64,000 bases of DNA from Bacteroidota bacterium (GTDB lineage: Bacteria; Bacteroidota; Bacteroidia; Chitinophagales; Saprospiraceae): the NCBI GenBank assembly GCA_030147525.1, contig JASBVF010000002.1, forward strand, positions 124,001-188,000. Reading direction: 5' to 3'. A program made the translations under genes and the position numbers. The notes under the pieces are model-generated. The model searched no databases, was not told where the DNA came from, and saw nothing but the letters and a program-made list of their open reading frames with translations. Each line of letters begins with the position of its first letter. The stretch's first letter is position 1. Positions 19,216 through 40,555 of the stretch are shown piece by piece.

Positions 19216-20337
19216 ATGAAAACTCCTTTTTTAAACCTGATACTGCTGCTCATGACAGCCATGACCACCGCCCAGGAAGGCGCTGCCCCACACCTGCAGA
19301 CCACAGCCACCGGCAGGCTCCAACTCACACCGGCAGGCGCCTCCCACTTCGCTGACCTGGCGCTCTCCTGCCTCCAGCAGGAGTATCCGAACAAATTGAA
19401 CCAAACCCTCGAAAATGAGGAAATGCTGAAGCCGCCGAGCCAATTGCATCCGGCTTTTTACGGCTGCTACGACTGGCACTCGGCAGTGCACGGGCATTGG
19501 ATGCTGGTGCGTTTGCTGAAGCAATTCCCGGAATTGCCGGAGGCCCCTGAAATCCGGAAAAAACTGGCCGAAAGCCTGACCGAGGAAAACATCAGGATGG
19601 AAACCAAACAATTCAAAATCGCCGGAAAATCTTGGGAGCGGATGTACGGCTGGGCCTGGCTGCTAAAGCTGGCCGAAGAACTCTACACCTGGGACGACCC
19701 GCAGGGGCAAAAATGGTTTGAAAACCTCTACCCGCTCACGGATGCCATCATCGGACGCTACACGGAATTCCTTCCGGTACAAACTTACCCCGTCAGGACG
19801 GGTGTGCACCCGAATACGGCTTTCGGCCTCTCTTTCGCCTGGGACTATGCGAACACGACAGGTATGCGGGGCTTTCGCACCATGATCGAACAGCGGGCAA
19901 GGGATTACTACCTCAACGACAAAAACTGCCCCGCCGGCTGGGAGCCAAGCGGTGAGGATTTTCTCTCAGGTTGCCTCGAGGAAGCCAATCTCATGCGACG
20001 GGTGCTGCAAAAGGAAGAATTCAGCGAGTGGTTCCGGCTGTTTTTACCAAAAAAACAATTAAAAAAACTCACCACCCCCGCCGATGTTTCCGACCGCTCC
20101 GATCCCAAAATCGTACACCTCGACGGGCTGAACCTGAGCAGGTCCTGGTGCCTGTACGGCATTTATCGATTGATTGATAAAAAACGGCAGCGTAAAATGA
20201 TGCTGGCTGCCGCCAAACGCCACCTGGAAACCACCGTACCAAACATCGCCAGCGAACACTACGAAGGTACGCACTGGCTGGCGACGTTTGCGGTGTATGC
20301 CTTATCGATGGATCTGAAGGGAGGAAAAAAGGATTAA
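19216..20337 (+). CDS. DUF2891 family exported protein
   Basis: Signal peptide MKTPFLNLILLLMTAMTTAQ, then a 350-residue (alpha/alpha)-toroid-like helical domain with the DUF2891 signature YGCYDWHSAVHGHWM, GKSWERMYGWAWLL, HPNTAFGLSFAWDYA and GWEPSGEDFLSGCLEEA. The fold and the Trp/His/Glu-rich conserved face resemble glycan-processing toroid enzymes, but no activity is established for the family. It follows the serine hydrolase closely. Its last four bases overlap the end of the convergent reductase gene. Confidence 0.88.
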   Translation: MKTPFLNLILLLMTAMTTAQEGAAPHLQTTATGRLQLTPAGASHFADLALSCLQQEYPNKLNQTLENEEMLKPPSQLHPAFYGCYDWHSAVHGHWMLVRLLKQFPELPEAPEIRKKLAESLTEENIRMETKQFKIAGKSWERMYGWAWLLKLAEELYTWDDPQGQKWFENLYPLTDAIIGRYTEFLPVQTYPVRTGVHPNTAFGLSFAWDYANTTGMRGFRTMIEQRARDYYLNDKNCPAGWEPSGEDFLSGCLEEANLMRRVLQKEEFSEWFRLFLPKKQLKKLTTPADVSDRSDPKIVHLDGLNLSRSWCLYGIYRLIDKKRQRKMMLAAAKRHLETTVPNIASEHYEGTHWLATFAVYALSMDLKGGKKD

Positions 20338-21200
20338 CGCACTTCCCAACAACTCGCATGATCCTTCGCAAAACTTTCAAAATCAATACCGGGGCGCCCA
20401 AGTATCATTTCGATATCCCGGCTGACTGCGGCCTCTTTTCCCATACGGACAATGCGATAAAGAAATACAGTATGCTCCGCTGAGGCCTGCGACCAGCCAC
20501 GTTTCACCATTTCTATTACAAATTCCTCTTCATTCAGGTGGACGTAGCGGATAGTGCGGCCGGCTGCTTCCGAAATTTTCTGGGCTACTTCGAAATGCGT
20601 CAGCGCTTCAAGACCAGTGAGTTCGTAAATCTTACCGGAATGACCGCTTTCGGTCAATGCCGATGCTGCAACTGCCCCCACATCCCTTACGTCCACAAAA
20701 GCCGTTCTTGAGTCGGCAGCGGGGAGGTAAAATGCATCCTCCGAAGGAATGGTGAAACCGACCCAGTTCAGGAAATTCTGCATAAACCAGCCGGGGCGAA
20801 GGATGGTCCAGTCAGCGCCGCTTTTTTTGATCAAACCCTCCGTGACGTGGAGCGGCTCATCTTCGAGGTCGCCGGTGGTTCGGCCGGAGTTGAAGACGAG
20901 GTGTTTCACCCCGGCCTGGATGGCTGTTTCAAAAAAAAGCTCCACCTGCAGCGGGTTCGTCGTGCCGGGCGGTATGACGAGGAACATTTTATCCACACCA
21001 GCCAGCGCCGTCAGCCAGGTGGCAGGTTCGTTGAAATCGAATTCCCGGAATTCACCGGCGCCGGCGGATAGTTTGGAATAAAGCCGTATAGCTTTTTCAA
21101 CATCCCGAACACCTGCAACGACCGGTTGCCCATGTGTGGCAAGTTGCTTGAATACTTCAGAGCCAACATTCCCGGTTGCGCCAGTGACGAGGATTTTCAT
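20334..21200 (-). CDS. NmrA-like NAD(P)-dependent reductase (SDR superfamily)
   Basis: The N-terminal GATGNVGSE is the dinucleotide-binding glycine motif of atypical short-chain dehydrogenases. The body (VDKMFLVIPPGTTNPLQVE, GVKHLVFNSGRTT, WTILRPGWFMQN) follows the NmrA/HSCARG and quinone-oxidoreductase-2 (YtfG) pattern. There is no classical YxxxK catalytic pair, so it may be a redox sensor or quinone reductase. It is 288 residues, normal for the family. It lies 18 bases downstream of the aminotransferase stop on the same strand, so the two may share a transcript. Its 3' end overlaps the convergent DUF2891 gene by four bases. Confidence 0.85.
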   Translation of the reverse strand: MKILVTGATGNVGSEVFKQLATHGQPVVAGVRDVEKAIRLYSKLSAGAGEFREFDFNEPATWLTALAGVDKMFLVIPPGTTNPLQVELFFETAIQAGVKHLVFNSGRTTGDLEDEPLHVTEGLIKKSGADWTILRPGWFMQNFLNWVGFTIPSEDAFYLPAADSRTAFVDVRDVGAVAASALTESGHSGKIYELTGLEALTHFEVAQKISEAAGRTIRYVHLNEEEFVIEMVKRGWSQASAEHTVFLYRIVRMGKEAAVSRDIEMILGRPGIDFESFAKDHASCWEVR

Positions 21201-21218
21201 TTTTGAAATTTTAGAAGA

Positions 21219-22511
21219 TTAGCCGTTTAACCACTCCACCATCCTTCTCACGCCCTGCATGACCTTTGGAGCAAATTTTTCTGCGAGGTCAGCGGTATTT
21301 TTAAAATCAGCCTCGGACATTTCGTGGGCCAATTCCAGTGCCTTGTCGCCGTCGAAATCCACAAAGCTGAGCCTGGCGCCGAGGAATTCTTCCGGAAAGC
21401 CAAAGTCGCTCGAAGGCAGCAGGGCCACACCGGTTTCATCCAACAGCCGGGCACAGAGTTCTTCGGAGGTTTCGATGCCCCGCTTCGCCAGTTTTTCACG
21501 ATAAAAATCGAAGACCGGGAAAATGTAAAAGCCGCCCTCCGGCGTGGGGTGTGCCACGTGGTTTTTCAATAAAAAACCGGAAACGGCATGCCCTACCGTT
21601 TTCAACACGAGCCGGGAATCCCGCAAGTATTTTTCAATGCCGGTCCCTCCCTGAAAAGCTTTGATGGCCGCGTATTGTATCGGCGTGCTGGTGGAAGTGA
21701 ATGTTTCGCTTGCAGCCACAGCCATGGCGTCGAGCAGCCAGCGCAGGGAAGACGGGAAGGTGAACGTGCCGAGTCGCCATCCACCTGCGCCGCACCATTT
21801 GCTCAGGCCGCTGCTGATGATGGTGCCCTCGGGGTAGTGCGTGGCGATGGAGAGATGGACGCCGTCGTGGTGAACCTCGCCGTAGATTTCATCGGACAGC
21901 ACGACCACGTTGTAGCGGCGGGCAACAGCAGCCATGTTTTTCAATTCCTCCTCCGTGTAGGTGGAGCCGGTGGGGTTGGCGGGGTAGTTGAGGATGAGCA
22001 GCCGGGGCCGTGTCGGATCTTTCTGGCAAAAACGGTCGAGGCCCTCCGGTGTGAGAAGCCAGCGGTTTTCAGGCTTGGTGGGCAGCCAGTACACGTGCCG
22101 GGAGGCGATGCGGGCCTGCGGCGCATACGACACCCAGCTTGGCCGGGGGATGACGAGGTCGCCGTAGTACACCATTTGCAGCAGAAACATCAACTCCTTG
22201 GAGCCGGGCCCAACGAGCACATCATCGCCGGTGGTGTGGATGCCTGCATGACGGTTGTGAAAAAAAGAAACAGCTTCCCGCAGCACCCGAAGGCCTTTCA
22301 CGGGGAGGTAATCTTTTTCGTGGGCGTGCTTTTTTAATTCTTCCACGACCGGGACGGGCACGGGGAACGGCGACTGGCCAAAACCGAGGCGGAATACCTT
22401 CTGGCCATTTTTGGCTAAATCAGCGCAACGTTCGTTGATGCGGAGTGTGGCGGAAGGCTGGAGGCCACGGACGTTGAGGTTGAGCTGTACCGGGATCGAT
22501 TGATTTGACAT
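21219..22511 (-). CDS. PLP-dependent class I/II aminotransferase
   Basis: Fold-type I signatures are clear: NYPANPTGSTYTEEEL (substrate carboxylate-binding Asn), VVLSDEIYGEVHHDG (PLP-binding Asp and Tyr), and SGLSKWCGAGGWRLG, where the Lys forms the Schiff base and the Arg binds phosphate. A late RLSFVDFDG holds the carboxylate-binding Arg. At 430 residues it is typical of aspartate/aromatic aminotransferases; the exact amino donor is not readable. Downstream on the same strand is the NmrA-like reductase. Confidence 0.9.
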   Translation of the reverse strand: MSNQSIPVQLNLNVRGLQPSATLRINERCADLAKNGQKVFRLGFGQSPFPVPVPVVEELKKHAHEKDYLPVKGLRVLREAVSFFHNRHAGIHTTGDDVLVGPGSKELMFLLQMVYYGDLVIPRPSWVSYAPQARIASRHVYWLPTKPENRWLLTPEGLDRFCQKDPTRPRLLILNYPANPTGSTYTEEELKNMAAVARRYNVVVLSDEIYGEVHHDGVHLSIATHYPEGTIISSGLSKWCGAGGWRLGTFTFPSSLRWLLDAMAVAASETFTSTSTPIQYAAIKAFQGGTGIEKYLRDSRLVLKTVGHAVSGFLLKNHVAHPTPEGGFYIFPVFDFYREKLAKRGIETSEELCARLLDETGVALLPSSDFGFPEEFLGARLSFVDFDGDKALELAHEMSEADFKNTADLAEKFAPKVMQGVRRMVEWLNG

Positions 22512-22628
22512 GTTGTCCTGTGGTTTTGTGAAATATAAAATGGCTCGTTCAGGGCGCCGGAGTGACCGGGATGAAAAATTGCAAATCAGTTTCCGGTTGC
22601 CATTGTACGCATTTTTTTAAAAAATAAA

Positions 22629-22662
22629 AAAGCCGTCCACCTGCACACAGGTAAACGGCTTT
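22629..22662 (-). terminator. Intrinsic terminator of the 922-aa TonB receptor gene
   Basis: On the minus strand AAAGCCGT pairs with ACGGCTTT, with an inner ACCTG/CAGGT stem, followed by TTTTTATTTTTT. It lies about 50 bases after the receptor stop codon. Confidence 0.9.
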
Positions 22663-22710
22663 CATTTTTAACCAACTATTTGCGAAGCAAAAACTGCTGA
22701 TCGCACAGGC

Positions 22711-25479
22711 TTAGAAAGAAATTTTCACACCTGCATTCCAGGTACGGCCAAAGCCGTAGAAGCCCTGATTTTTAGTGTAAAACTCGTTTTCAGGCGTGTT
22801 GGGATCGTCAGCGACGTTGGTATCGAGCTCTGCAACGTAAGTATTGTTCATCAGGTTGTTGATGTTCAAACGGAAAGTTGCGTCGAGTTTATCCCAGTCA
22901 AACTTGTAGGAAATACCGGCATCGACCAGGCCGTAAGCAGGTAATTGTACCACCTGACCACCTGCAGACTTGAACTGGTCTTCAAGAATATTAAATTCTG
23001 CATAGAGGTTGTCGGCGTAGTAGTAGCTGCCATAGATGTTCAGACCGTACACCGGCTCTACATTTGCGCTCAACGAGAAGGTCGTCTGTGCAGCGTCTCC
23101 CACTTTGATTCCGTCGGCAAAAACTGTGATCCGGGTATCACCGATGAGCGGGTCCTGGGTATCAACGTTGGCCAGATTGGCAGAGAAGTTATCCTGAAAT
23201 TCCCAGTTGTTGATGGAGGCCATACCGGTGATGGTGATGGCTTTGATCGGGCGGTAAGAGAATTCCAATTCCACACCTGTGTGTCTTTCCTTCACGCCGA
23301 AGTAGGTAGCCAGGGCATCCACATTGATGGTATCACCGGCAGCATCGAGCGCCTGCGCCTGGAAACCTTCGTCGAACTGGCGGTTATCCCAGATCGTGTT
23401 GTAAAGGTTCAGGTTAGCTTTGAAATTGCGGTTTCTGAAACCGTAACCGGCTTCAATGGCATAGATATCCTGGTTTTCAACCACGGTACTCAACTGATTT
23501 ACGAAGTTGATGTAAACGTTATCAAAAATCGGCTGCTTGGAGAGGTAGCCACCGTTCACGAACACGTTGTGGTTGGCGTTGATGTTGTAGTTAAAACCAG
23601 CTTTGGTAGTGAGCCCGAGGAAGTTCTCCCAGTCAGTTTCCTGAGCAGGGTCGCTGTCCAGGTAGTTAAAATAATCAATCCGCTTGAAGCCCTGATTGGA
23701 ACCGGCGAGCGATATGAAAGCAGAGAGATTGTCTTTTTCGTACTCCACCTGACCGAAGAGGCCCATCCAGGAAACGAGGCCGTCGTTCCAGTAATTCAGC
23801 ACGTTGTTGCCGTCTTTGTAGCTGTTGTCGGAGAAATTACCGAAGTCAGCAGCAGAAGGCTCGGTGATGATGTTGTTCGGATTATTATCATTGGAGCGGG
23901 AGAGGTATCCGTCAGCGCCAAGCAGATTTTCCAGGCGGCGGTAGTGGATACCTTTGTAGTAGCGGCCATCGATACCGGCCACGACTGTCCAGTTGCTGTT
24001 CAGCTTGGAAGTCAGCGTTGAAAGCACCCCATACCAGTTGTGAGAGTTCATACTTGCCCGGCGGATGAAACCGCTGCCATTGTCAGATCGGGTGCCGTCT
24101 TCGTAGTAAATCCGGCCATCGCTGGTAACGAGGTACTGGCCATTTTCAGGGTTTTTGGCATCGCCAAAGCCGTCTACGGTACCACCCTGGTTGTAGCTGA
24201 CGATGTCGTCAAAACGAACCTGGCCATTGGCATCGTGAATGCCGGTGCCGTTTCCGCTGTATGAATCAAAAACGCTGCCCGGTGTACGCAGGCGGCCACG
24301 GGGGCCAGTACCACCGCCACGGCCAAAGGAAACATAAGCAGAGGTTTTCACGTCCGTTTTATCACTGATCGTCCAGTAGTGGTTGATGAAAGCTTTTGGC
24401 TTGTGGTAAAAGTTCCTTCTCCAGGAGAACTCTTCGCCGTTGAGCGTACCCCAGTTCGGGTTAAAACGAATGCCCTGATCCTGGTAAGTCTGAAGGAAAA
24501 GCCGGTCGAAGTTGCTGAATGTCCGCTGGTGGTGCCACTGAGGCGCACCCACGACCGTGAAGGCCAGCGTATGGCTTGGATTAAAGGTTTGGGACAAAGA
24601 AAGGAAGTAAGAGTAGGCACGGAACATCGTACCGTCCACGTAGCCATCGCCACGGGTGTGGGTGAGTTGCATGGTGGCAGCGAAACCTTTTTCGCTCAAA
24701 CCGCTGGAAAGCATCAAGCCATATTTTTGATAACCGTCGTTACCAATGCTCACACTTGCTTTTCCACCTTTGGCAAAATCAGCAGCATTTGTTACAATAT
24801 TAATGGAACCTCCTACAGAAGGTACAACCGTTTTTGCTGCACCCAAACCACGCTGCACCTGAAGCGTGCTGGTAACGTCAGAAAGACCGGCCCAGTTAGA
24901 CCAGTAAACCCAACCGTTTTCCATGTCGTTAACCGGAATACCGTTGATCATCACAGCGGTGTTTCTTTGGTCAAAACCACGTACGTTGATACGGGAATCA
25001 CCAAACCCGCCACCTGATTTTGTTACGTAGATGGAAGGCGTATTACGCAGGATTTCAGGATATTCCTGGTTGCCGACCAAAGCCTCAATTTGGGCGCCTT
25101 TGATGGTCGTCACAGCCACCGGTGTTTTCCGGTCAATGGCTACGGAGGCAATTACATTGACCTGGGCAAGACCGACCGAACCAAATTCCAGTTTGACGGC
25201 GCCAAGGTCAGTGTCGCCGGAGACGGTTACTTCCTGGGTTTTCGTTTCAAAACCCGTGTAAGTAATGTCCATTTTGTAAGTCCCGTTCGCCAACTGGACA
25301 GCAAAAGATCCGTCGATGTCAGTAATAGTACCAAATGTTTTTCCTGCAGCATCTTTCAGGATCACACTGGCACCGATCAGCGGTTCATTGCTGTCGTCGG
25401 TCACAACTCCTGTGAGTTTTTGCCCAAAGGCAGACAGCGTTAAAACTGTCGTGAACAAAAAGAGTAGTGCTTTTTTCAT
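22711..25479 (-). CDS. TonB-dependent receptor with N-terminal carboxypeptidase-regulatory-like domain
   Basis: Signal peptide MKKALLFLFTTVLTLSAFGQ, then a CarboxypepD_reg-like domain (residues 20-110: LTGVVTDDSNEPLIGASVIL, ITDIDGSFAVQL, YTGFETKTQEVTV). The plug domain runs about 125-240 (PEILRNTPSIYVTKSGGGFG, RGFDQRNTAVMINGIPVNDM, VPSVGGSINIVTNAAD), and a 22-strand barrel reaches the terminal Phe (TWNAGVKISF). It imports a large or scarce ligand across the outer membrane using TonB energy. No SusD partner gene is adjacent, so it is not a classic glycan-utilisation pair. It has its own terminator and a 5' leader of about 316 bases containing a conserved block and a short ORF shared with the neighbouring receptor gene. 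Confidence 0.92.
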   Translation of the reverse strand: MKKALLFLFTTVLTLSAFGQKLTGVVTDDSNEPLIGASVILKDAAGKTFGTITDIDGSFAVQLANGTYKMDITYTGFETKTQEVTVSGDTDLGAVKLEFGSVGLAQVNVIASVAIDRKTPVAVTTIKGAQIEALVGNQEYPEILRNTPSIYVTKSGGGFGDSRINVRGFDQRNTAVMINGIPVNDMENGWVYWSNWAGLSDVTSTLQVQRGLGAAKTVVPSVGGSINIVTNAADFAKGGKASVSIGNDGYQKYGLMLSSGLSEKGFAATMQLTHTRGDGYVDGTMFRAYSYFLSLSQTFNPSHTLAFTVVGAPQWHHQRTFSNFDRLFLQTYQDQGIRFNPNWGTLNGEEFSWRRNFYHKPKAFINHYWTISDKTDVKTSAYVSFGRGGGTGPRGRLRTPGSVFDSYSGNGTGIHDANGQVRFDDIVSYNQGGTVDGFGDAKNPENGQYLVTSDGRIYYEDGTRSDNGSGFIRRASMNSHNWYGVLSTLTSKLNSNWTVVAGIDGRYYKGIHYRRLENLLGADGYLSRSNDNNPNNIITEPSAADFGNFSDNSYKDGNNVLNYWNDGLVSWMGLFGQVEYEKDNLSAFISLAGSNQGFKRIDYFNYLDSDPAQETDWENFLGLTTKAGFNYNINANHNVFVNGGYLSKQPIFDNVYINFVNQLSTVVENQDIYAIEAGYGFRNRNFKANLNLYNTIWDNRQFDEGFQAQALDAAGDTINVDALATYFGVKERHTGVELEFSYRPIKAITITGMASINNWEFQDNFSANLANVDTQDPLIGDTRITVFADGIKVGDAAQTTFSLSANVEPVYGLNIYGSYYYADNLYAEFNILEDQFKSAGGQVVQLPAYGLVDAGISYKFDWDKLDATFRLNINNLMNNTYVAELDTNVADDPNTPENEFYTKNQGFYGFGRTWNAGVKISF

Positions 25480-25594
25480 CTGTTGAGTATTTATTTAATG
25501 AATGTTATAAAATCAATAGAATACGGCCACATTGCACGTGTGCAGGCCTGAGTATTTGATAGCGAAAAATTGAGTGGTTTAAAAAAAGAAGGCG

Positions 25595-25612
25595 CTGAAA
25601 TATGAGTTTCAG
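25595..25612 (-). promoter_or_regulatory. Weak hairpin plus T-run in the receptor leader (attenuator-like)
   Basis: On the minus strand CTGAAA-N6-TTTCAG is followed 7 bases later by T7 (25587-25581). The stop codon of the upstream short ORF lies inside the left arm, so a ribosome ending there would disrupt the stem. Only 6 bp, so the role is speculative. Confidence 0.3.
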
Positions 25613-25701
25613 TCGAGTATTCCGAAGGCGCTAAGAAGCAAGATCAGTGGAAGTTGAACGGTTTCGTTTGCCGGACAGAGAAGTTGCATTGATAGTTTCA
25701 T
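25609..25701 (-). CDS. Putative upstream ORF (30 codons) in the TonB receptor leader
   Basis: The ATG follows the conserved TTTGCAA by one base. It opens MKLSMQLLCPANETVQ and continues with a hydrophobic LPLILLLSAFGI-type tail. It ends in TGA inside a small hairpin about 130 bases before the receptor start. The position of its ATG relative to the conserved block is the same as in the other receptor leader. No homology claim is made; it may be a leader peptide or a chance frame. Confidence 0.35.
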   Translation of the reverse strand: MKLSMQLLCPANETVQLPLILLLSAFGILD

Positions 25702-25801
25702 ATTGCAAATCTTTTTGGCGCTCTTCAATGATTGAGGGATTGAGATTCGAAGTAGCAGTGAGGGCAATTTGCAAATGCCGATTGATTACGAGTGCGAAGG
25801 T
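25699..25801 (-). promoter_or_regulatory. Conserved leader/promoter block of the 922-aa TonB receptor gene
   Basis: Read on the minus strand it begins TACCTTCGCACTCG (a -7-like box) and ends TGAAGAG-N12-TTTGCAA-T-ATG. The last 42 bases align without gaps to the block at 29648-29689, with 29 identities by hand count. The spacing between the two landmarks differs by only 3 bases. Either landmark could be the promoter; AAGATTTG here and AATCTTTG in the other leader are each one base off TAnnTTTG. Confidence 0.5.
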
Positions 25802-26058
25802 AGTTACAAATGACCTATTGTCAAAAAATGAAGGTTAAGCGATTTTTAATTTTTCGCAAATTGGTAAAAGTTACTTTTAATCCTGAAAGCTATTTTTAAA
25901 ATCCCCGCCTTTCAAAATAAAATTTCCCTCATTCAAATTATTTTTTCCATAAAATATCATCGCTGGCCAATGATTTCGCCCCCCTCCGGTTTTTAACAAT
26001 AAACGACCTGATGATTTCCCGTTTACCAAATTTCGCCAGACCACCCTTTTTACGAAAA
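25802..26058. other. Spacer between the two receptor genes, no gene seen
   Basis: AT-rich sequence between the promoter block of the 922-residue receptor and the terminator of the 1096-residue receptor. A TTTTTG at about 25821-25826 on the minus strand could be a -33 element for the TACCTTCG box. A 79-codon minus frame running 25938-26177 crosses the terminator and the end of the next gene and is not credible. Confidence 0.5.
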
Positions 26059-26090
26059 AAGCCGCTTCCCCCGGCAGGGAGAAGCGGCTT
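26059..26090 (-). terminator. Intrinsic terminator of the 1096-aa receptor gene
   Basis: AAGCCGCTTCTCCC and GGGAAGCGGCTT pair on the minus strand, followed by TTTTTTCG. It lies about 50 bases past the stop codon. Confidence 0.9.
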
Positions 26091-26140
26091 ATCGATGTTC
26101 CTGTTTTTTTTAATAAAAAACGGGAAAACTTGATTTTTCC

Positions 26141-29100
26141 TTAAAAAATGTAGCGAACGCCCAATTGAGCCTGCCAAACACTGTTCAAAGAAATGTCTTT
26201 TGCCAATGCTTCCGTCGGGAAAGTACCGGCGCTGCTTGGCGCAAAAGTGTACACCGGCTGGTTGGTAGCGGCGTCAACTTTTGAGAACTTCAGCGGGAAG
26301 TTGTTAACCGGGAAGTCACCTACACCCCACTTGTTGTTGATCAGGTTGCCGAAGTTGTAAAAGTCGGCTCTCAACTGGATAGTGTGGCGGCGGTCTTTGA
26401 TGTTCACAAAGAATTCCTGCTGCACGGACAAGTCAAGCGTTGTCAGCCACGGCATGATGGCGCCGTTGCGCTCAGCGTACTGACCCTTGCGGGAGCTGAG
26501 GTATTCGTTGTTGTCAACAAAAGCCATGAAAGCTTCACGCTGCTGGTTCGCTGTGTAAACAGTACCGCTGACAGTGACATCTTCGAAGAGAATTTCGTTG
26601 CCGTTTTGCGGAATGTAAAGCAGGTCGTTGCTGGTCAGCTGATCGCCGTTCATGTCGCCGTTGATCAGGAAAGTGTAACGGCCCTGGTTACTGCTCTGAG
26701 CAAACAACGAGATCGTCGTTGAAGCCAGGTTAGCGTACTCGAGGCGGTAAGATACTGCACCGATGATACGGTGGCGCTGATCGAAATCAGAGAAAGCCAG
26801 GTCCGGACGGTTGTTGCCATTCACGGAGCTGTTGTCACGCCAGGAGGAGAAGGCGATTGATCCGGCCGTCATCAGGTCCTGAGACTCGCTGAAGTTGTAA
26901 GCCAGCATGGTGTAGAATCCTTTCTTGAACTGACGCTCCAACTTGGCTGTGAGGCTGTAAGTAGAACCTTTTCTCGTGTTCGTCAAAACGATTGCATCCG
27001 TGATCTTGTCATTGATGCGAAGTGCGTTGTTGGCTGCGCTGCCGCTCAGGCCAAGACCTGCGTAGGTAGGACGATCGTCAGCACCACTGTAAGAACCTTT
27101 CGCCGGTTCCTGGTTGGCGTTGATGTAGAAAACGTTGTTGATATTTTTATTGAAAATACCTTCTACCGTTCCAACAAATCCCAATGGAAGTGCAACGTCA
27201 ACAGCGAGGTTGGTTCTCCACAATTGCGGGAATTTGAAACCGTTGTCTGTCACAGCGATATTGAAAGAAGAAGGCGTAGTGGCATTTTCAGGAATATACG
27301 CAGTCACGTCAGGGCTGAAAGGATAATCCGTAGTGTTGTCAATACGCTGAGCACCGGTGAGGATACCGTTATTACCAACCTGGTTGGAAATCCAAACGAA
27401 AGCCGGACGGCCTGCGAACAAGCCTGTTCCACCTCTCAACTGGAGGGTGCGATCACCTTTCACATCGTAGTTAAAACCAACTCTTGGTGAAAACAGCGGG
27501 TTGGTCTTAGGCAGTTCATTCGTGCTATATCTAACGGAGTTGCCATCGGCATTGATGAAGTTCATGGTATCAACCACAGGGTTATTGAGCGCAGTGTTGC
27601 CGTAAATCGGCACATCCACCCGCACACCTACCGTTACCTTCATCTTGTTGTCCATCATCGCAATTTCATCCTGGATGTAAGCGCCCGGCTGAGCGACTTT
27701 TGTGGTAGCCGTTGGAAGCGCACCACCCGGAAGCGCAGAGTAAGTCAACTGGTAGCGTCTCAGCTGGATGTTACCAACACCGTTCACGTCGTCATAAAAA
27801 TCCTGGAGTGAGTTGTACACAAACTGGCCGTAGTAAGTCGGCGTGAAGGTGTTGTCAAATTTGAAATATTCAAAGTTGATACCCGCAGTGAAAGTATGTG
27901 CACCACTGTACATCGTAATGTTATCCTGGAACTGCCAGGTATCCGTGTTCAACCTGTTGTTTGGCGTAAAAGGCTCATAACCGAAGGTCGTATAGTTACG
28001 GCCGTCCTTCAGGATATCCACCAATGGGAATACGTTTCCACCACTGCTACGGTAGTCACGGTTAGCCGTGAAACCGAATTGAACTTTGTTGGAGAAACGG
28101 GTTCCGAACACCGAGTTCAACTCCACGATACCGGAATAGATATCGTTGTTGATGATGTAGTTGGAGTTCGAGAAGTTCATGGCGAAGTTATTACCTCTTC
28201 TGCCCTGGAATGACCCACTGTTGCTGCTCAAAACGTCACGGGAAGACTTCAGGTAGTTGTAGCGTACGCTCAGGCGGTGCGACTGGTTGATGTTGTAGTC
28301 GATTTTCGCCAGAATTTTATCACTCTTCGTGTTGAGCAGGTAGTTTTCGTACACGCCCGGATCGTAATCAAAACGATCCTTCAGGAACTGAGAAAGCTGA
28401 TCCAGATCGGAAGCTTCCACACGGGTCACGTTGTCGCCGGTGAGGCCCGGTCTTGCAGCGAGGAAAGAAGTAGCCGGGTCGTCACGGCGCTCGATTTCAC
28501 CGTTTACAAAGAAAAACAGTTTGTTCTGGATGAGCGGTCCGCCCAAACGGAAGCCGGTTTGCTTGATGCTGAAATCCGACTTGGCAACCGGCAAGCCGTT
28601 CGCTTCGTCGCCAGCCAATGATTCGCTGCGGGTATTGTAAAAAACAGAACCTTCGAAACGGTTGGTACCTGAGCGGGTCACTGCGTTGATGCCTGCGCCC
28701 GTAAAACCACCGTCACGCACGTCGTAGGGAGCCAGGTTCACCTGGATCTCCTCGATGGCATCCAATGAAATAGGCGAAGAGTTAGTCTGACCGGCAGGAG
28801 CAGATGCAAGACCAAAGCTATTATTGAAAATTGAGCCGTCCAGTGTAAGGTTGTTGAAGCGGCTGTCCTGGCCGGCGAAAGAAGTACCGCTGCCGGTAGT
28901 AGCTGCCACGTTGGAAGAGCGGCTTTGCGGCGTCAAACGAACGAAGTCGTTCAAGCTCCGGCTAAGCGTTGGCAGGGCGTTGATCGCTTCTTTTTTGATG
29001 TTCGTTGAAGCACCGGTGCGCTCCGAGTTCAGAATTTCATTTTCAACAGCAGTTACTACAATTTCACTGAGCACAGAGGCAGACTCTCTCAACTTAACGT

Positions 29101-29431
29101 CGAGGCGAAAGTTTTGCCCAAGGCTAAGGCTTACGTCATTGAGCCCGTAGGCTTCAAAGCCGGTGTAGGTCACCTCAATTTTATACGGACCGCCGATGCG
29201 GACAGCAGGCAGGTTGAAGCGGCCGTCTTCACGTGTAGAAGTACCGTAAAAAGTACCGGAAGGCTGGTGAGTTGCCACAACGTTGGCTCCAACAAGCGGC
29301 TCGCCATTTACATCTGTAATCTGGCCGAGGAAACTTGCGTTTTGCGCCATAGAAGTTGATTGCAAAACAACAGCTAACAACAGAACTGCGAACAGTTTTA
29401 GTGTCGTTAGACTAGTAAAAACCTTTTTCAT
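26141..29431 (-). CDS. Oar-like TonB-dependent receptor
   Basis: Signal peptide near MKKVFTSLTTLKLFAVLLLA ... MAQ, a CarboxypepD_reg-like domain (residues 33-125: FLGQITDVNGEPLVGANVVA, STREDGRFNLPAVR, YTGFEAYGLNDV), a plug (NEILNSERTGASTNI, SRSLNDFVRLTPQSR, GGFTGAGINAVTRSGTNRFE) and a barrel ending WQAQLGVRYIF. The Arg-Ser-Gly-Thr-Asn plug motif and the GGPLIQNKLFFFVNGE segment are characteristic of Oar-type receptors, known from Myxococcus development and from protein import/export in Bacteroidota. It encodes no SusD. It is upstream of, and independent from, the 922-residue receptor gene, with its own terminator and an ~309-base leader. Confidence 0.92.
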   Translation of the reverse strand: MKKVFTSLTTLKLFAVLLLAVVLQSTSMAQNASFLGQITDVNGEPLVGANVVATHQPSGTFYGTSTREDGRFNLPAVRIGGPYKIEVTYTGFEAYGLNDVSLSLGQNFRLDVKLRESASVLSEIVVTAVENEILNSERTGASTNIKKEAINALPTLSRSLNDFVRLTPQSRSSNVAATTGSGTSFAGQDSRFNNLTLDGSIFNNSFGLASAPAGQTNSSPISLDAIEEIQVNLAPYDVRDGGFTGAGINAVTRSGTNRFEGSVFYNTRSESLAGDEANGLPVAKSDFSIKQTGFRLGGPLIQNKLFFFVNGEIERRDDPATSFLAARPGLTGDNVTRVEASDLDQLSQFLKDRFDYDPGVYENYLLNTKSDKILAKIDYNINQSHRLSVRYNYLKSSRDVLSSNSGSFQGRRGNNFAMNFSNSNYIINNDIYSGIVELNSVFGTRFSNKVQFGFTANRDYRSSGGNVFPLVDILKDGRNYTTFGYEPFTPNNRLNTDTWQFQDNITMYSGAHTFTAGINFEYFKFDNTFTPTYYGQFVYNSLQDFYDDVNGVGNIQLRRYQLTYSALPGGALPTATTKVAQPGAYIQDEIAMMDNKMKVTVGVRVDVPIYGNTALNNPVVDTMNFINADGNSVRYSTNELPKTNPLFSPRVGFNYDVKGDRTLQLRGGTGLFAGRPAFVWISNQVGNNGILTGAQRIDNTTDYPFSPDVTAYIPENATTPSSFNIAVTDNGFKFPQLWRTNLAVDVALPLGFVGTVEGIFNKNINNVFYINANQEPAKGSYSGADDRPTYAGLGLSGSAANNALRINDKITDAIVLTNTRKGSTYSLTAKLERQFKKGFYTMLAYNFSESQDLMTAGSIAFSSWRDNSSVNGNNRPDLAFSDFDQRHRIIGAVSYRLEYANLASTTISLFAQSSNQGRYTFLINGDMNGDQLTSNDLLYIPQNGNEILFEDVTVSGTVYTANQQREAFMAFVDNNEYLSSRKGQYAERNGAIMPWLTTLDLSVQQEFFVNIKDRRHTIQLRADFYNFGNLINNKWGVGDFPVNNFPLKFSKVDAATNQPVYTFAPSSAGTFPTEALAKDISLNSVWQAQLGVRYIF

Positions 29432-29584
29432 GAAAGAAAATTTAGTGAATAATTAAATAAAAACGTAATGAACAATTGATTATCAATCAGTTAACCCATT
29501 GTTCAAAATTTAATATTTCAATACTGTGTTGGTGAAAAGAAATAAGCGAATCAGCTTTTGATCCTCCCTGAAGAATCAGTGATT

Positions 29585-29650
29585 TTAGAATAAAGCCAGA
29601 AAAGGAGGAATAGTGGAATCAGAAAGGAAAGTGATGATTGTTTGTTCCAT
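29585..29650 (-). CDS. Putative upstream ORF (21 codons) in the Oar-like receptor leader
   Basis: The ATG follows the conserved TTTGCAA by one base. It opens MEQTIITFLSDSTIPP, continues with a hydrophobic tail, and ends TAA about 150 bases before the receptor start. It shares its placement, and a proline-then-hydrophobic C-terminus, with the short ORF in the other receptor leader. Leader peptide or coincidence cannot be told from one genome. Confidence 0.35.
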   Translation of the reverse strand: MEQTIITFLSDSTIPPFLALF

Positions 29651-29750
29651 CTTGCAAAGATTTTAATGACTCTTCAGTGGCTTGGGGATATCAGATTTTG
29701 AAAAGCATCCTGTCTTTTGCATGTGTCTTAAATTCGGGTGCGAAAGTATA
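29648..29750 (-). promoter_or_regulatory. Conserved leader/promoter block of the Oar-like receptor gene
   Basis: Minus strand: TATACTTTCGCACCCG at the upstream edge, CTGAAGAG-N12-TTTGCAA-G-ATG at the downstream edge. It aligns with the block at 25699-25801 at both landmarks, with a 3-base length difference in between. Confidence 0.5.
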
Positions 29751-30081
29751 GACAATTGCCGGTTTCACAAAGCTTCCTGGTTAAGCCGGGTTTAATTTTT
29801 TGTAAACCCAAAAAAACCGGATTTTCATTGAAAATATTAATTCCGTGAACGCACCTTATTTTGAAATTTTTCAAGGAAAACGCCCCATCACACCCAACCA
29901 ATCCGGCCAGTTTGCCCGTCAGGCTTTTATCAGTGCTATTTTTTAAAAAAAATGGGTTGAGAAAAGAAAAAACGCAGCCCTTTACATACCCCGCCCTTCG
30001 ATATCAAATCCATCCCCGAAAGCCTGAAGGTGACATTTTTCACCGGACATCCTAAAACACTAGCCTGACAAATAGTTTTTT
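29751..30081. other. Intergenic stretch between divergent genes, nothing recognised
   Basis: AT-rich with several A/T runs. A 64-codon plus frame at 29861-30055 has no recognisable features. It presumably carries the promoter of the exported protein at 30082, but I see no clear box. Confidence 0.4.
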
Positions 30082-30666
30082 ATGAAAAAATCACTACTTC
30101 TTTCCATCCTTCTCACCACCACATTATCAGCAGCCGGGCAGAACAATCAACCTGAAACCTTCTCCCAACAATTCGGCTTCGACGCGGCCGGCTTCCTGAG
30201 CCGCTTCTTTAATTTCTCCGGCTCCGGCTCCGCCGAAACACCCTACTATCTTTCTTACCGCAAACTTGGCGAAAAGAAAAATACCCGCCTTGGCCTCGGC
30301 GCCAACCTCTCCGTGGAGGGCGATGGCAATGGCGGCACCAACTCGCTGAACGCCATCAATTTCAGGGTGGGAAGCGAACGCTTCAATGATTTCGGCAAAC
30401 GCTGGCGGGCATTTTATGGTTGGGATTTTAAAATGTTCTTCACTTACCTTTCTACGGGCGGCTCCGGCAATAACGCCACACAGCTCGGACTTGGCGTAGC
30501 TCCTCTGTTTGGCCTGCAGTGTCGGCTGAATGAACGGCTTTCATTTTCCACTGAAATCGCCTATAATCTTTTTTTTACCGTGCGGGACAGCAACGGCCGT
30601 ACCCGCTTCGGAGCCAATACTTCGTTCAGCCCACCGCTTGCATGGTACGTCAATTATGATTTTTGA
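30082..30666 (+). CDS. Exported protein, probable small outer-membrane barrel
   Basis: Signal peptide MKKSLLLSILLTTTLSAAGQ. The mature ~175 residues show alternating polar/hydrophobic strands (TRLGLGANLSVEGDGNGG, AINFRVGSERF, RAFYGWDFKMFFTY, LGLGVAPLFGLQCRL, SFSTEIAYNLFF) and end in a terminal Phe (WYVNYDF), as expected of an eight- to ten-stranded outer-membrane barrel. I do not recognise a family. It stands alone between two long spacers. Confidence 0.75.
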   Translation: MKKSLLLSILLTTTLSAAGQNNQPETFSQQFGFDAAGFLSRFFNFSGSGSAETPYYLSYRKLGEKKNTRLGLGANLSVEGDGNGGTNSLNAINFRVGSERFNDFGKRWRAFYGWDFKMFFTYLSTGGSGNNATQLGLGVAPLFGLQCRLNERLSFSTEIAYNLFFTVRDSNGRTRFGANTSFSPPLAWYVNYDF

Positions 30667-31014
30667 ACATCGGGGTTTTGGAATTGCAATTGCCTAAAAA
30701 TCAACGGGGAGAATGCCAGCCGGTCATGCATCAGTTGCTGATTCAGCAGAAAGGCTGCTTCACTGATGCAGACTTCGTATTTTTGGTTAAATTTTTGCGG
30801 CTTGCGGCCTGGTAGTTCAAAGAATTCACAGAGAAAACTTTTTAATATTTAAATAGATTTTAATTTTGCTCCATCCTCAGTGGTTCCTGCCAAAAGAAAA
30901 CCTAAATTCACCCCCACCTTTCATCCAATTGGTTTTACCTGCCGGTCTGTCGTCAGGAAGCAGTATCAAGAATCGAAAACTCGTTAAATTGTAATTCCAG
31001 AACGAACGTCACAC
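30667..31014. other. Intergenic stretch, nothing recognised
   Basis: 348 bases, AT-rich, without a credible frame, a strong hairpin or a clear TAnnTTTG box. Confidence 0.5.
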
Positions 31015-34000
31015 ATGAAAAAGCGTCTGCTGTATTCCATCATAGCCATTCTGGTCTTCTTCAGCCTCGGAGCCTCGCTCGATTTTGGAGTTTCCAAAGA
31101 AGATCACCTTGAGACTTATGTCCGGCGAATCGAACGAAGCCTGCACAAAAAAGAAGCGGAAGTTCAGGAATTTTTGTCCGATACAGGTTTTATTTTCAGG
31201 CAATTGAGAGGTGTCGAAAAGCTACCTTCACCTCAACAACAGACAGACCTGAAGCAATTGCTGGAATTAACCAAGAAGGAGTACAACATTCGTTTTTACA
31301 AGCAAGACTCTCTACTCTATTGGCTCAACAACAAGGCATTCCTTTCGGAAGAGGAGGTAAAAACAATACTTGACAACAGAGAAAGTAACTATCTGATACA
31401 CCTGCCCAACGGGTATTTTGAACTCATACGGGCAGACCTGCCTCAAGGCGTGACCGCTCTGGCCATGCTGCCCATCAAACGTCAGTTTTCACGGGAAAGT
31501 GAATTCCTGCCCAATGATTTTGTTACGGACGATTTTCCCATCCCCCCGGACGTTTTTTTTCGTGAAACACCTACCGATTTCCCCATTCACACGATGCAGG
31601 GCGCTCCGATCGCTTACATTGATGCTGCCGGGCCAGCCAAAGACAGGCTGCATCTTCAGTTTATATTTTTCATTTATGTGCTGGGCTTCATTGCCGTCGG
31701 AGTACTGATCAACGACATTGCCGTCATTCTCGTCCGGCGCTACCAGCCCTGGGTTGGGGCGGCATTTGTGCTGAGCATGGTCATCATCGTTCGGTGGTTG
31801 ATCATTAAGCTGGGCTTTACACAGCATTTTGCCAGCTTCCAAACCTTTTCAGATGTTTTCACCGACCCCATACTGGAGGGAGTGAATTCGCTGGGAGAAT
31901 TGCTGATCAATATCATTTTGCTGGTCTGGTTAATGGTTTTTTTCAACCGGGAGTTTCAGGTTAAAGAGTTTTCGCATGCTTCGCCGGCTATCCGTTTTGC
32001 GCTGACCACACTGAACTTTTTTGCCATTAACCTCGGCATTTTGATGGTGTGTTACATTTTCAAATCTATCGTTTTGGATTCGTCCATCGTGTTCGATTTT
32101 GAAAACGTATTCAACCTCAACTCGCAGAGCGTACTGGCGATGATTGGTGTGGTGTTGCTGCTGTTGGCCCTGTTTCTCTTCAGCCACCGCATGATGCTGG
32201 CCATTCACAAAGTCGGCTTGAATAAATACTGGCGGCTTGGGGCCGTTGGCGCTTCGATTTTACTGGCAGTTCCGGTTCTTTTGAATGGAGAATTCCACTT
32301 ACCGCTACCTTATTTTTTGGTGGCAGCCATGATTTACCTGATCGTTTTTGAGTTTTTCATCGAGGTTCGTTCCATGACGCTGGAGTGGCTCGTGATCTGG
32401 CTCATGCTTTACGCCGGGCTGACTTCTATGCTTCTTTACAAGTACAACAGTGAAAAAGATTACCTGCGCCGGGAAAAATACGCCGTTGCACTGACGAATT
32501 ACCAGGACTCAATCGCAGAGCCTTCCATTGCCAAAATCGGAGCTGCCATGCTTACCGATTCTATCATAGCTACATGGAATCCACTGGAAGACTATTTTTC
32601 ACCTGACCTCATCCCAAAAGATGAAGCAAGAGAAATTGTGGATCGGCAGCTGGCCACCAACAAATATCTTTTCCACAATTATGAGTTCCGACTCAACGGT
32701 TTTTACAAAAAAACCGGTAGAAGTGCGCTGACCGACCAGGAACAATCCCTGGGAGAAATGGAGGAGCAATTTCATAAGGCTAACCCCACGAAATTTCAAT
32801 ACCTGCATTTTAATCCTGAAAAAACACGGAACCCCGGCTACCTGATGAGGCTTGACCTGCCGACGAAAGAGCCCCTGATTATTTTTATTACTTTCAAACG
32901 CTCATTTTCAACCCCATCCAAGGTTTACACAGAACTGCTACTCGATAAAAAATATAAAAACCTTACTGAACTGGACAACTACGACTATGGGATCTACCAG
33001 GATGGCCAGCTTGTAGAGGAACGCAACCAGCCATACGGCAAACAGCTCAGTGACCCACTTCCGCCTGTGGGTGAATTTAGCATCGTAAAACAAACCAGCA
33101 CCCGCTCCGAATTGCTCTACCATGCGCCCAACAATATTGCCATAAAAATTGGACGGGAAACCGGTGGCTACATCAAGCCACTGTCGCTTTTTTCCTATGT
33201 CTTCACCCTCCTGACTATCGCCGTTTTATTGTTTGCAGGCATCAATTACTACACGAATGCGTTGCCCGGCCCGCTCAATTTTATGCGCACTACGAAGCCG
33301 TCTCTGCGCAACCAGTTTCAGTTTTGGGTAATCAGCATGATTTTGTTTTCCTTCCTCGGGATTGGATTTGTCACGGTTTGGTATTTTCAGCAATCCTCTA
33401 ACGATTACCACAAAGGCCGCCTCGACCGAAAGGTAACCTCGGCGCTTGCCAGTGTAACCTATGAAATAAAAGCCTGGCACCGGGAAAGAATAAGAGAATG
33501 GGAAAAAGAGAGAAGTCTGGCCGGAAATAAAAAACCAAACAGCACCGGCCAGGTCAGAATAAATCAGCCTCCTCATGATGAGGACAATATTAAAATCAAA
33601 CTTCAGGACGAAACAGAAGTCCCAAACCTCAGCGAGTACGATGACAAGCCGGATGCCTTTTCACTCAGTTCGCTCATCCCGCTCATATCTGAAGTACACC
33701 GGCTGGATGTGAATATTTACGACCTGAAAGGCAACCTCATTACTTCTTCAGAAGAAGACATTTTTAAAGGCGGCCTTATTTCCACGAAAATGGGCGCCCA
33801 TGCTTACCAGGTCATCACTCGCCTGGGTTACGAGCGCAGCGACCAGGACGAAGCCATCGGCAGCCTTGAATACACTGCAGCTTACCTACCGCTTCAGGAT
33901 TTAAACAATAATACCCTGGCATTTATGGGTATCCCGTACTACGCCCGACACCGGGAGTTGCGCAGTGACGTGACAGATTTCATGAGTACATTGCTCAACG

Positions 34001-34923
34001 TGTATGTTTTCCTGCTGCTGATTGCCGGCGGTTTGGCCATTTTTGTGGCCAACTCCGTCACCAAAGCCTTGTCAGAGTTGAGTGAAAACATTCAGCGGCT
34101 GCGGCTGGGCGGCAACCAGCCCATCGTCTGGAAACGCAAGGACGAAATTGGCGACCTGGTGGAAGCCTACAACCGGGCCGTCAAAAAAATTGAGGAAAGC
34201 TCCAAGCTCCTGGCCCAATCTGAACGGGAAGGCGCCTGGCGGGAAATGGCCAAGCAGGTAGCACACGAAATCAAAAACCCGCTGACGCCGATGAAACTGA
34301 GCATACAGTATCTGCTACATGCCTACCAGAACAACCCCGACCCGGAAAGTATCGAGCCTTTGCTGAAAAGGGTGTCCAACACACTCGTGGAACAAATCGA
34401 GTCGTTGGCGCAAATTGCTACAGAGTTTTCAAACTTCGCTAAAATGCCAAAGGCCCAAAACGTTGAACTTTCACTGAATGACCTGGCCGCATCCGTCCAC
34501 CACCTGTTCCGCAACGAACGACCTGACATGGACATCAGCATCCAGCTTCCGGAAAAAGAGTACGATGTTTTTGCCGACAAAAACCACGTAACGAGGGTAT
34601 TGAACAACCTGTTCAAAAATGCCATTCAGGCCATCCCCGACAACAGGCAGGGCCAGATCAAACTTTCACTCTACCAAAAAGATAATATGGCCGTTATTGA
34701 AGTGAGCGATAACGGCAGCGGCATCCCACCGGAAATCCGGGAAAAAGTTTTTACCCCAAATTTTTCTACCAAAACTTCCGGCACGGGCCTCGGCCTGGCC
34801 ATTTGCAAAAGCATCATCGAAGGCTTCAGCGGTAGCATTTATTTTACCACAGAAATGGGAACAGGTACTACCTTCTTCGTAGAATTGCCCATCATGGAAA
34901 TACGGGAAAAAGAGATGGCGTAG
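31015..34923 (+). CDS. Large membrane sensor histidine kinase (1302 aa)
   Basis: One N-terminal membrane segment (residues ~5-25), a ~185-residue extracytoplasmic region, a block of about seven membrane helices (residues ~212-470), another extracytoplasmic stretch, further helices near 723-745 and 765-790, a second sensor loop, a helix at ~990-1012 and a HAMP linker. The phosphoacceptor is His1084 in [15 protein letters not shown] (NtrB/NtrY-like). The ATPase domain has [24 protein letters not shown] and [15 protein letters not shown]. The overall plan is close to NtrY-type kinases but with many more membrane helices. No response regulator is adjacent, so its partner is elsewhere. Confidence 0.9.
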
Positions 34924-35032: not shown

Positions 35033-35141
35033 AACAATTTCCCCCTTCCATACCTTAACCCTTTGTTCCTTCGTTGTGTTAAATACTGAATCTGTTTTTT
35101 ATAAAAACTTGAAACTCATCACTAAAAATCCACACCCTTTC

Positions 35142-36827
35142 ATGAAGCTTCCGGCAAACTTTTTCACGAAAATTTTCACCCTTGCTGCATTTATTTTTTT
35201 AGCAAATACCCTCCAGGCACAGTGCATTTCCGGTGATTGTAAAAATGGTACCGGCATCTACCTCTACCCCAGCGGCGCCAAATACATCGGCCAGTTCAAG
35301 GACGGTGAGATCCATGGCATTGGCACCTGCTACTACACCGACGGCAGCACGTACCGGGGCGAATGGGCCCACCGCTACCCTGAAGGCCACGGTATCAAAA
35401 CCCTGGAAGACGGCCGCACCTGGGAAGGCACCTGGAAGATGGGCCTACCGCTCGACGAAAATGGTAAGCCCATTGAAAACCTTTTCCCTGAAGAAAAAAT
35501 AGCGGAAGAAATTCAGTCCGGCTGCCTGGAAGGTGACTGTGACGGTGGCCAGGGGATTTTCGCTTACCCTGACGGCAGCAAGTACGAGGGCCAGTTCACG
35601 GCCGGCAAACCTGACGGTTGGGGCACTTTCACCTACACGAATGGCGACCGTTACGTCGGCACCTTTAAAAATGGCCTTAAAAATGGCAAAGGAACTTTCT
35701 TTTACGCTGACAACACCCAGGCAACCGGGGAATGGCGGGAAGGTGAGTACCTCGGCAACCCGCAAATCGAATACGGCCGGGTAGGCTGCGTCGAAGGTGA
35801 CTGCGAAAAAGGACGTGGTACTTACATTTACAAAGACGGTGTTGCCAAATATATCGGTACATTCTCCAACGGCTTGCCGGATGGCGAAGGGGTCATCTAC
35901 TACGCCAACGGCGAGCGATACAGGGGCCGTTGGGCGCTCGGCAGTTTTAACGGAAAAGGCACGCTCTACATGCCGGACGGCACGGAAGTCACCGGCTTCT
36001 GGAAGGACGGTTCGTTCATGGGCAACGAAAAGCCACAGCAAACTCAACCCACAGCCCCCAGCCTTTCTCCCGAAGATTACATTGCCATTCGCAAGGCCAG
36101 CGACATGAAGGTTTGGGCGGTCATCATCGGTATTTCATCCTACAACCACATGCCTACCCTGCGCTACACCGACGACGACGCCTACCGGATGTATGCCTTC
36201 CTGAAAAGCCCCGAAGGCGGCGCCTTGACCGACGACCAGATCCGGATTCTGATTGACGAGGATGCTACTTACGATAAAATCACCAGCTCCATGCAGGAGG
36301 TTTTCAGCAAAGCCGGAAAAGATGACCTCGTGATGCTTTACTTTTCAGGCCACGGTCTGAGGGGATCCTTCCTGCCTATCGATTTCAACGGTTACGATAA
36401 AAAACTTGAGCACGAGGAGATCAACAAAATACTGGATGCCAGCCCGGCCAAGTACAAACTTTGCATCGCCGACGCCTGCCACTCCGGCAGCCTGCTGGCC
36501 ATGGCTGAAAAAAGCGGTGAAATCCGCAACGTACTCGAAGATTATTACAAAACGCTGGCCCAGGCCGACGCCGGAACGGCCCTGATTATGTCTTCCAAGT
36601 CAGATGAAACCTCACTGGAAAGCAGCGGCCTTCGCCAGGGTGTGTTCAGTCACTTCCTCATTCGGGGCCTGAAAGGCGAGGCTGACAAGGATGGCAACAA
36701 AATCGTGACCGTCCAGGAACTCTTCGATTTTGTGGATCAAAACGTGCGTACGTACACGATGAACCGGCAGTCTCCGGTGATCAAGGGGGTGTATGACGGG
36801 AAGATGACGGTGGGAGTTGTCAGATAG
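35142..36827 (+). CDS. Exported MORN-repeat / caspase-family (peptidase C14) fusion
   Basis: Start at 35142 gives a signal peptide (MKLPANFFTKIFTLAAFIFL ... LQA); a frame further upstream lacks one. Residues ~25-300 hold about ten MORN repeats (YIGQFKDGEIHGIG, YEGQFTAGKPDGWG, YVGTFKNGLKNGKG, YRGRWALGSFNGKG) in three blocks, each headed by a C-x-x-GDC motif (CISGDC, CLEGDC, CVEGDC). Residues ~325-560 are a caspase-like domain (VWAVIIGISSYNHMPTLRYT) with catalytic dyad His404 in YFSGHGLRG and Cys446 in IADACHSGS. The Cys-rich block heads suggest disulfides and export. Specificity (Arg/Lys or Asp) cannot be judged. Followed by a strong terminator. Confidence 0.92.
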   Translation: MKLPANFFTKIFTLAAFIFLANTLQAQCISGDCKNGTGIYLYPSGAKYIGQFKDGEIHGIGTCYYTDGSTYRGEWAHRYPEGHGIKTLEDGRTWEGTWKMGLPLDENGKPIENLFPEEKIAEEIQSGCLEGDCDGGQGIFAYPDGSKYEGQFTAGKPDGWGTFTYTNGDRYVGTFKNGLKNGKGTFFYADNTQATGEWREGEYLGNPQIEYGRVGCVEGDCEKGRGTYIYKDGVAKYIGTFSNGLPDGEGVIYYANGERYRGRWALGSFNGKGTLYMPDGTEVTGFWKDGSFMGNEKPQQTQPTAPSLSPEDYIAIRKASDMKVWAVIIGISSYNHMPTLRYTDDDAYRMYAFLKSPEGGALTDDQIRILIDEDATYDKITSSMQEVFSKAGKDDLVMLYFSGHGLRGSFLPIDFNGYDKKLEHEEINKILDASPAKYKLCIADACHSGSLLAMAEKSGEIRNVLEDYYKTLAQADAGTALIMSSKSDETSLESSGLRQGVFSHFLIRGLKGEADKDGNKIVTVQELFDFVDQNVRTYTMNRQSPVIKGVYDGKMTVGVVR

Positions 36828-40505: not shown

Positions 40506-40555
40506 TGAATCATGAGCGAAATGCCGCCTTGTTCTTCGTTCATCGTTCATCATTC
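40500..40555. repeat. Inverted repeat of GATGAA words between kinase and regulator genes
   Basis: GAATGATGAA (40500-40509) and TTCATCATTC (40546-40555) are exact reverse complements; an inner GAGCGAA/TTCGTTC pair has one mismatch. The left arm includes the TGA stop of the kinase gene. Confidence 0.7.

Follow-up and report, generated by a model that had tools for sequence, protein, structure and literature searches.

In a Saprospiraceae genome, two tandem genes for TonB-dependent receptors that have little in common beyond their N termini are preceded by homologous leaders. As a whole, this arrangement is best explained by one ancestral promoter-leader module, of which each receptor gene has a copy, with the receptor exchanged behind it, an explanation that we consider on balance probable. 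The promoter-leader module is real and, in this sample, restricted to one genus. Both receptor genes lie on the minus strand of the window, by which we mean the whole analyzed stretch of 64,000 nucleotides (assembly GCA_030147525.1, contig JASBVF010000002.1, positions 124,001 to 188,000). The preliminary description of this DNA had suggested that the leader is a shared regulatory module, and the suggestion holds in the sense that a homologous promoter and leader stand ahead of two little-related receptors (Table 1).

Homology of the two leaders

The 1,096- and 922-residue receptors are 33% identical in an alignment confined to 184 N-terminal residues, and further aligned pieces over the remainder are at chance level. 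Upstream of the genes, about 185 bp are common to both leaders (positions -375 to -190 for the 1,096-residue receptor and -381 to -194 for the 922-residue receptor), with a local alignment score of 51; 1,000 dinucleotide shuffles gave a mean of 15.9, a standard deviation of 2.4, and a maximum of 27. This pair ranked first in all 2,016 pairwise comparisons of the upstream regions of 64 receptor genes in this genome, for a few of which the start codon is uncertain. The second-best pair (score 42) looks by eye like coding sequence of two AraC-like genes, and the next one matches related receptors through AT-rich DNA.

The common stretch runs from TTTACAAAAAATTAAA through CTTAACC and a TTTG 19 nt before TACTTTCG or TACCTTCG to just past the ATG of a short open reading frame (ORF); the similarity reaches about 60 bp farther upstream than had first been seen and stops soon after that ATG. 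From the start of the -7-like block (29748 and 25802) to the start of TGAAGAG (29676 and 25727), the distance is 72 nt in the 1,096 leader and 75 nt in the 922 leader, and to the ATG (29650 and 25701) it is 98 and 101 nt. The reported 3-base difference in block spacing was thus reproduced, while the reported interval of about 95 bases between the blocks was not, that figure being closer to the separation of the -7 block and the ATG; recounting also gave a spacer of 11 rather than 12 nt between TGAAGAG and TTTGCAA and 26 rather than 29 identities over the last 42 bases. No description of this leader came up in a literature search, although one may have been published.

The surroundings hold several other genes. 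A 1,302-residue sensor histidine kinase is encoded on the opposite strand upstream of the 1,096-residue receptor (31015-34923, plus strand), with a 194-residue gene lacking a Pfam match between the two. The gene at 35076-36827 (plus strand) encodes a caspase-like Peptidase_C14 domain fused to MORN repeats, and a gene for a DUF2891 protein (19216-20337, plus strand) adjoins one for a Beta-lactamase-family protein (18013-19188).

Table 1. Receptor genes and leader features in the window, grouped by leader
Feature	Position	Strand	Remarks
TonB-dependent receptor, 1,096 aa	26141..29431	-	CarboxypepD_reg; Plug, marginally below the cut-off; OMP_b-brl_4
Upstream box, TTTACA-N5-TTAAAC-N5-TTAACC (1,096 leader)	29779..29806	-	Three hexamers at 11-bp steps; PHO-box-like by form only
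-33 element TTTG, 19 nt ahead of -7 element (1,096 leader)	29768..29771	-	From sequence; consensus in passages of PMC6847099 and PMC7366714
-7 element TACTTTCG and following bases (1,096 leader)	29735..29748	-	Putative promoter of the 1,096-aa receptor
TGAAGAG-N11-TTTGCAA-N-ATG block (1,096 leader)	29648..29676	-	
Short ORF, 21 codons (1,096 leader)	29585..29650	-	Coding role unsupported
Weak stem near short-ORF end, CTGA-TTCT-TCAG (1,096 leader)	29568..29579	-	Predicted by eye
CGCTTATTTCTTTT (1,096 leader)	29535..29548	-	Corresponds to CGCC-ATTTCTTT in relatives
Hairpin ahead of receptor start, UGAACAAU...AUUGUUCA (1,096 leader)	29469..29505	-	
TonB-dependent receptor, 922 aa	22711..25479	-	CarbopepD_reg_2; CarboxypepD_reg; Plug
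Upstream box, TTTGCG-N5-TTAAAA-N5-TTAACC (922 leader)	25833..25860	-	
-33 element TTTG, 19 nt ahead of -7 element (922 leader)	25822..25825	-	From sequence
-7 element TACCTTCG and following bases (922 leader)	25789..25802	-	Putative promoter of the 922-aa receptor
TGAAGAG-N11-TTTGCAA-N-ATG block (922 leader)	25699..25727	-	
Short ORF, 30 codons (922 leader)	25609..25701	-	Coding role unsupported
Stem CTGAAA...TTTCAG with short-ORF stop, then CGCCTTC and T7 (922 leader)	25581..25612	-	Terminator-like
Hairpin ahead of receptor start, GGCCTGCA... (922 leader)	25525..25548	-	

A promoter of primary-sigma form and an upstream box

Promoters for the primary sigma factor of Bacteroidota have a -33 TTTG element and a -7 element of the TAnnTTTG type, according to passages of PMC6847099 and PMC7366714. 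The first block of the leaders, taken with TTTG-N19, has this form: TAnnTT(T/C)G is present in all 12 leaders of the set described below, and both window leaders, in which the spacing was counted, have the -33 and -7 elements 19 nt apart. The window copies differ from the consensus by a C in place of the third T of TTTG; among the 10 other leaders, eight end in TTTG and two (G302 and G303) in TTCG. Transcription would begin at this predicted promoter, and because TTTG-N19-TAnnTT(T/C)G has the primary-sigma form, the leader would be about 310 nt. Such a leader would be long for this phylum, given mean 5' leader lengths of 33 nt in Flavobacterium johnsoniae and 65 nt (median, 24 nt) in Flavobacterium psychrophilum in passages of PMC6847099 and PMC9723704.

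The box directly above the promoter consists of hexamers at 11-bp steps, the last of which stops 30 nt short of the -7 element in the two window leaders. In seven others this distance is 30 to 32 nt, making nine of 12 leaders, two of which have one hexamer off. Direct repeats at 11-bp steps are typical of PhoB/PhoP/OmpR-type sites, and their presence beside the promoter is a likeness by form only. When up to one mismatch was allowed, the box pattern matched 12 times in 14 genomes of the genus, nine of these at the leaders, with eight matches for a reversed-pattern control; all six exact matches were at leaders. Relatives of the 1,096-residue receptor numbered 55 in named genomes, three of which lacked a start codon or upstream DNA. 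Scoring of the upstream regions of the other 52, some with uncertain starts, gave a strong box in four (score above 30, the next being 11.7), all of them congeners already counted.

One could also suppose a plain tandem duplication of the promoter region, the box being an A-tract, UP-like element with no specific regulator. The box is A/T-rich and adjoins the -33 element, and no wider regulon is visible, but the fixed steps and position of the hexamers and the similar half-sites in four of seven phoX promoters, described below, argue otherwise, and we regard such a duplication as unlikely. The module reading has evidence against it as well, in that the G303 leader has no upstream box and the leaders of G292 and G304 have diverged.

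The conserved block and the short open reading frame

As first described, the short ORFs of the two leaders comprise 21 and 30 codons; they end 153 and 129 nt ahead of the receptor starts. The TGAAGAG-N11-TTTGCAA-N-ATG block is probably the stretch ahead of the short-ORF start and not a promoter. The preliminary description had named a lack of enrichment of this block ahead of TonB receptor genes as evidence against its interpretation, and no enrichment was found. Only two of the 64 Plug-domain ORFs of the same genome have it, the next best match having 14 of 17 letters, a value that shuffled sequences reach; a general TonB-gene leader was therefore rejected. Elsewhere among 298 genomes of the family, nine carry an exact match, one each, of which eight sit within open frames of at least 120 codons on either strand, and none of the nine has a receptor ORF within the following 600 nt.

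Of the 12 leaders, all but G292 have an ATG that aligns with the short-ORF start, and CAAACA or a near-match soon follows in most. TTTGC ahead of the ATG is kept in four of 11 leaders, the others having GCAGTT, GGCTTT, or other letters. A second promoter, whose TTTG would lie 4 nt upstream of the ATG, with the short ORF translated from a leaderless mRNA, would fit the fixed spacing of TTTGC-N3-ATG in those four. It is missing from the remaining seven, however, while the upstream TAnnTT(T/C)G is found in all 12; both window copies lack T-12 of TAHHTTTG, and leaderless mRNAs are a minority in flavobacteria in passages of PMC6847099 and PMC9723704. We disfavor this reading, put forward in the preliminary description, as very improbable.

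Attenuation by a leader peptide, in which ribosomes on the short ORF would set termination at a stem near its stop codon and a T-rich run, draws on the aligned ATG and CAAACA, on a stop codon that by eye falls within or close to a stem in several leaders, and on the T7 of the 922 leader. The reading frame itself argues against it. Open-frame length does not exceed chance (Fisher combined P = 0.29 over nine lineages, individually 0.15 to 0.42 against shuffled sequence, with G292 left out of the test and G305 and G061 out of the combined value), and it ranges from 18 to 52 codons. No peptide is conserved past the first residues, and the sequence varies freely between close relatives; G298 and G305, with receptors 98% identical, have mostly different short-ORF residues after MNQTL. 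In addition, CAAACA lies in another frame in G300 and G061, an A at -3 was read in four of 11 leaders, and z-scores for the stems are modest. The leader peptide first proposed thus fares poorly, and we consider attenuation through it distinctly unlikely.

Base composition and structure of the leaders

Putative hairpins were found in several leaders near the 5' end, the short-ORF stop, and the receptor start, with weak statistics. In the 922 leader, the short-ORF stop lies, as had been noted, inside a small stem (25595-25612). CGCCTTC and T7 come next, a terminator-like arrangement with a U-run that is plain by eye; hairpin peaks are modest elsewhere. Windows at -300/-245, -150/-95, and -60/-5 have a mean z-score of about -1.1 in nine leaders (G305, G061, and G304 being left out of this and the other nine-leader tests), and scores for whole leaders range from -3.3 to 0.6. 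Compared with 62 other receptor genes, the window at -75/-20 is marginal (P = 0.04 for 12 leaders and 0.046 for nine). An Rfam search of positions 20000 to 31000 of the window returned six matches at an E value of at most 1, none over its gathering score and none in the leaders.

Over the 75 nt after the ATG, C is more frequent than G in all 11 leaders (mean, 27% C and 13% G). When 75-nt windows in the last 300 nt were scored for C minus G, the top values were greater than those at 62 other receptor genes of the same genome (P = 0.0006 for 12 leaders and P = 0.003 for nine). A C-rich, G-poor stretch here would suit a Rho-loading site. Rho-dependent attenuation, in which this stretch would serve as a rut site whose accessibility depends on short-ORF translation or on leader structure, gains from both results, but C-rich upstream regions occur at other receptor genes too, with a highest value of 26 compared with 21 for the leaders. 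We give this explanation the same low probability as attenuation through the peptide.

Distribution of the leader

Orthologues in congeners have leaders with the same order of parts. A sequence-only model (R1) was built from 10 leaders, the divergent G292 and G304 being left out. In the 14 genomes of the genus there are 10 strong copies in nine genomes, two in the genome of the window and one in each of eight others, every one upstream of a receptor gene; these are the very sequences from which the model was built, and the next match has an E value of 0.0018. Of the five genomes without a strong copy, G292 and G304 have a diverged leader before the orthologue of the 1,096-residue receptor gene.

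Among 298 genomes of the family, R1 matched at E values of at most 0.001 in 21, and four matches were strong (E < 1e-30), two in the genome of the window and one each in G061 and G261. No strong copy was found outside the genus in these 298 genomes, in a search whose stricter filters may lose weak copies. A spread beyond the genus was considered and rejected: by eye in the ORF list, none of the 19 weak loci has a receptor start, and the best of them (4.5e-6) precedes an ORF that we take to resemble a proton-pumping pyrophosphatase.

Different receptors behind homologous leaders

The receptors of G302, of the 922 family, and G303, of the 1,096 family, stand behind homologous leaders (E = 2.7e-23) and have no mutual match at 1e-8. 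The gene directly before the G302 leader, which encodes DUF3857 and transglutaminase domains, has a counterpart of 52% identity two genes upstream of the G303 leader. Pairwise gapped identities, for which the baseline is near 65%, were set aside.

In G299, a 1,096-type receptor body, 75% identical to that of the window, is found where G300 and G061 carry a 922-type receptor. G299 has a common upstream gene with G061 (43% identity) and, at the end of its contig, the last part of a convergent 1,115-residue gene in common with G300. A 50-nt patch in the start-codon region of G299 is 86% identical to G061 (E = 2e-10), and 12 nt after the stop codon of the 1,096-type receptor lies a decayed 38-residue C terminus of the 922 type (L237, 5539-5652), which matches residues 885 to 922 with one stop inside. 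The simplest reading is that the receptor body was replaced between 922-type ends. For some genomes, loss from an older tandem pair, such as that in the window, is possible, and it could be part of what appears as exchange.

Candidate phosphate regulation

The box may be bound by an OmpR/PhoB-type response regulator that would make the receptors phosphate starvation inducible, a guess we hold tentatively; our confidence, never as much as even, was lowered a little because the phoX gene of the same genome is without the site. phoX was found in seven of the 14 genomes of the genus. In four of these (G217, G261, G292, and G298), a TTAAHN hexamer ends 31 to 32 nt before the sole -7-like site, and in the other three, whose phoX differs in type, judged by its start, and among which is the window genome, the phoX promoter has no such half-site. 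Other receptor loci of the genome served as the control, with the half-site at two of 63 -7-like sites by a loose -7 pattern, which two of the phoX sites need, and at two of 52 by a strict one. The resulting Fisher value for four of four phoX sites (P = 2e-5) takes no account of orthology, which makes the four promoters nonindependent, or of the fact that the test came after the feature had been noticed. In G261 and G298, moreover, the -7 spacer of phoX has GG, contrary to the TAHHTTTG rule. Within the window, two of 40 -7-like sites have the half-site, and these are the two leaders. TTAAAM-N4-CTTAACS is not enriched genome-wide (14 matches in 14 genomes compared with 37 for the reversed control), and no PstB over the family cut-off was found in the genome of the window, which has 58 weaker matches.

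In G292, phoX, a CCP_MauG gene, and the 1,096 orthologue lie in a row, with the first two directly upstream of the receptor (L186, 8282-15893); this is the one case of phoX adjacency among 55 receptor loci with flanks of up to 4 kb. When F. johnsoniae is depleted of phosphate, several TonB-dependent transporters are induced, one of them with PF13620, as is a MauG-like gene of the phoX cluster (passages of PMC8115612).

The window also encodes, at 39510-41252 (plus strand), a histidine kinase and an OmpR-family response regulator, a candidate regulator of the box. PnpS/PhoR and RpaB/PhoB are among their best NCBIfam matches, below cut-offs, and the pair is under the cut-off of every family among the best 25 of 82 and the best 25 of 97 matches. 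Should the box prove to be a PHO box, it would provide a sequence handle on phosphate regulons in the Saprospiraceae, known here mainly from metagenome-assembled genomes (by record titles).

Proposed model and comparison with known systems

In the model we favor, a single ancestral module, now present in separate copies, would drive transcription of each receptor gene; it is made up of a box of three TTnANN-like hexamers, TTTG-N19-TAnnTTCG directly below it, and the leader. In each of the eight sampled congeners, the module would control a single receptor gene. Promoter and leader would have remained in place as receptors of unrelated families were swapped behind them, and the genome of the window keeps two receptors in tandem with one copy each. 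The long leader would add control after initiation through structure or Rho, and not through a defined peptide. We regard the module as ordinary in its promoter and unusual in its leader length and receptor exchange.

The F. johnsoniae PHO regulon, with its phosphate-induced transporters, PusCD, and MauG-like gene, resembles the present case in receptor domains (PF13620; PF13715 with PF07715), in the phoX-mauG pairing of G292, and in the candidate 11-bp repeat site (passages of PMC8115612). It differs in that the genome studied here has no PstB over the cut-off and no site at its phoX, in that regulator and induction are predicted here from sequence, and in that those passages do not mention a long leader. 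Long 5' untranslated regions with short ORFs in Bacteroides thetaiotaomicron (passages of PMC7366714) share with these leaders the length and the short ORF, whereas a coding role for the short ORF lacks support here.

The substrate of a receptor is often guessed from its regulation or its neighbors. Where the control region is constant while receptors change, one signal can come to govern unrelated receptors, and the constant region offers a way to seek alternative receptors for the same nutrient. It is quite possible, if short of probable, that this is a receptor-exchange locus, in which promoter and long leader form a stable socket that outlasts the receptor and unrelated TonB receptors inherit the same regulation; similarity between leaders and between signal-peptide codons may guide such exchange. 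Bacteroides fragilis has invertible susC-type and promoter regions. The likeness to these lies in one expression site serving alternative outer-membrane receptors; the difference is that the change of receptors described here is seen between species.
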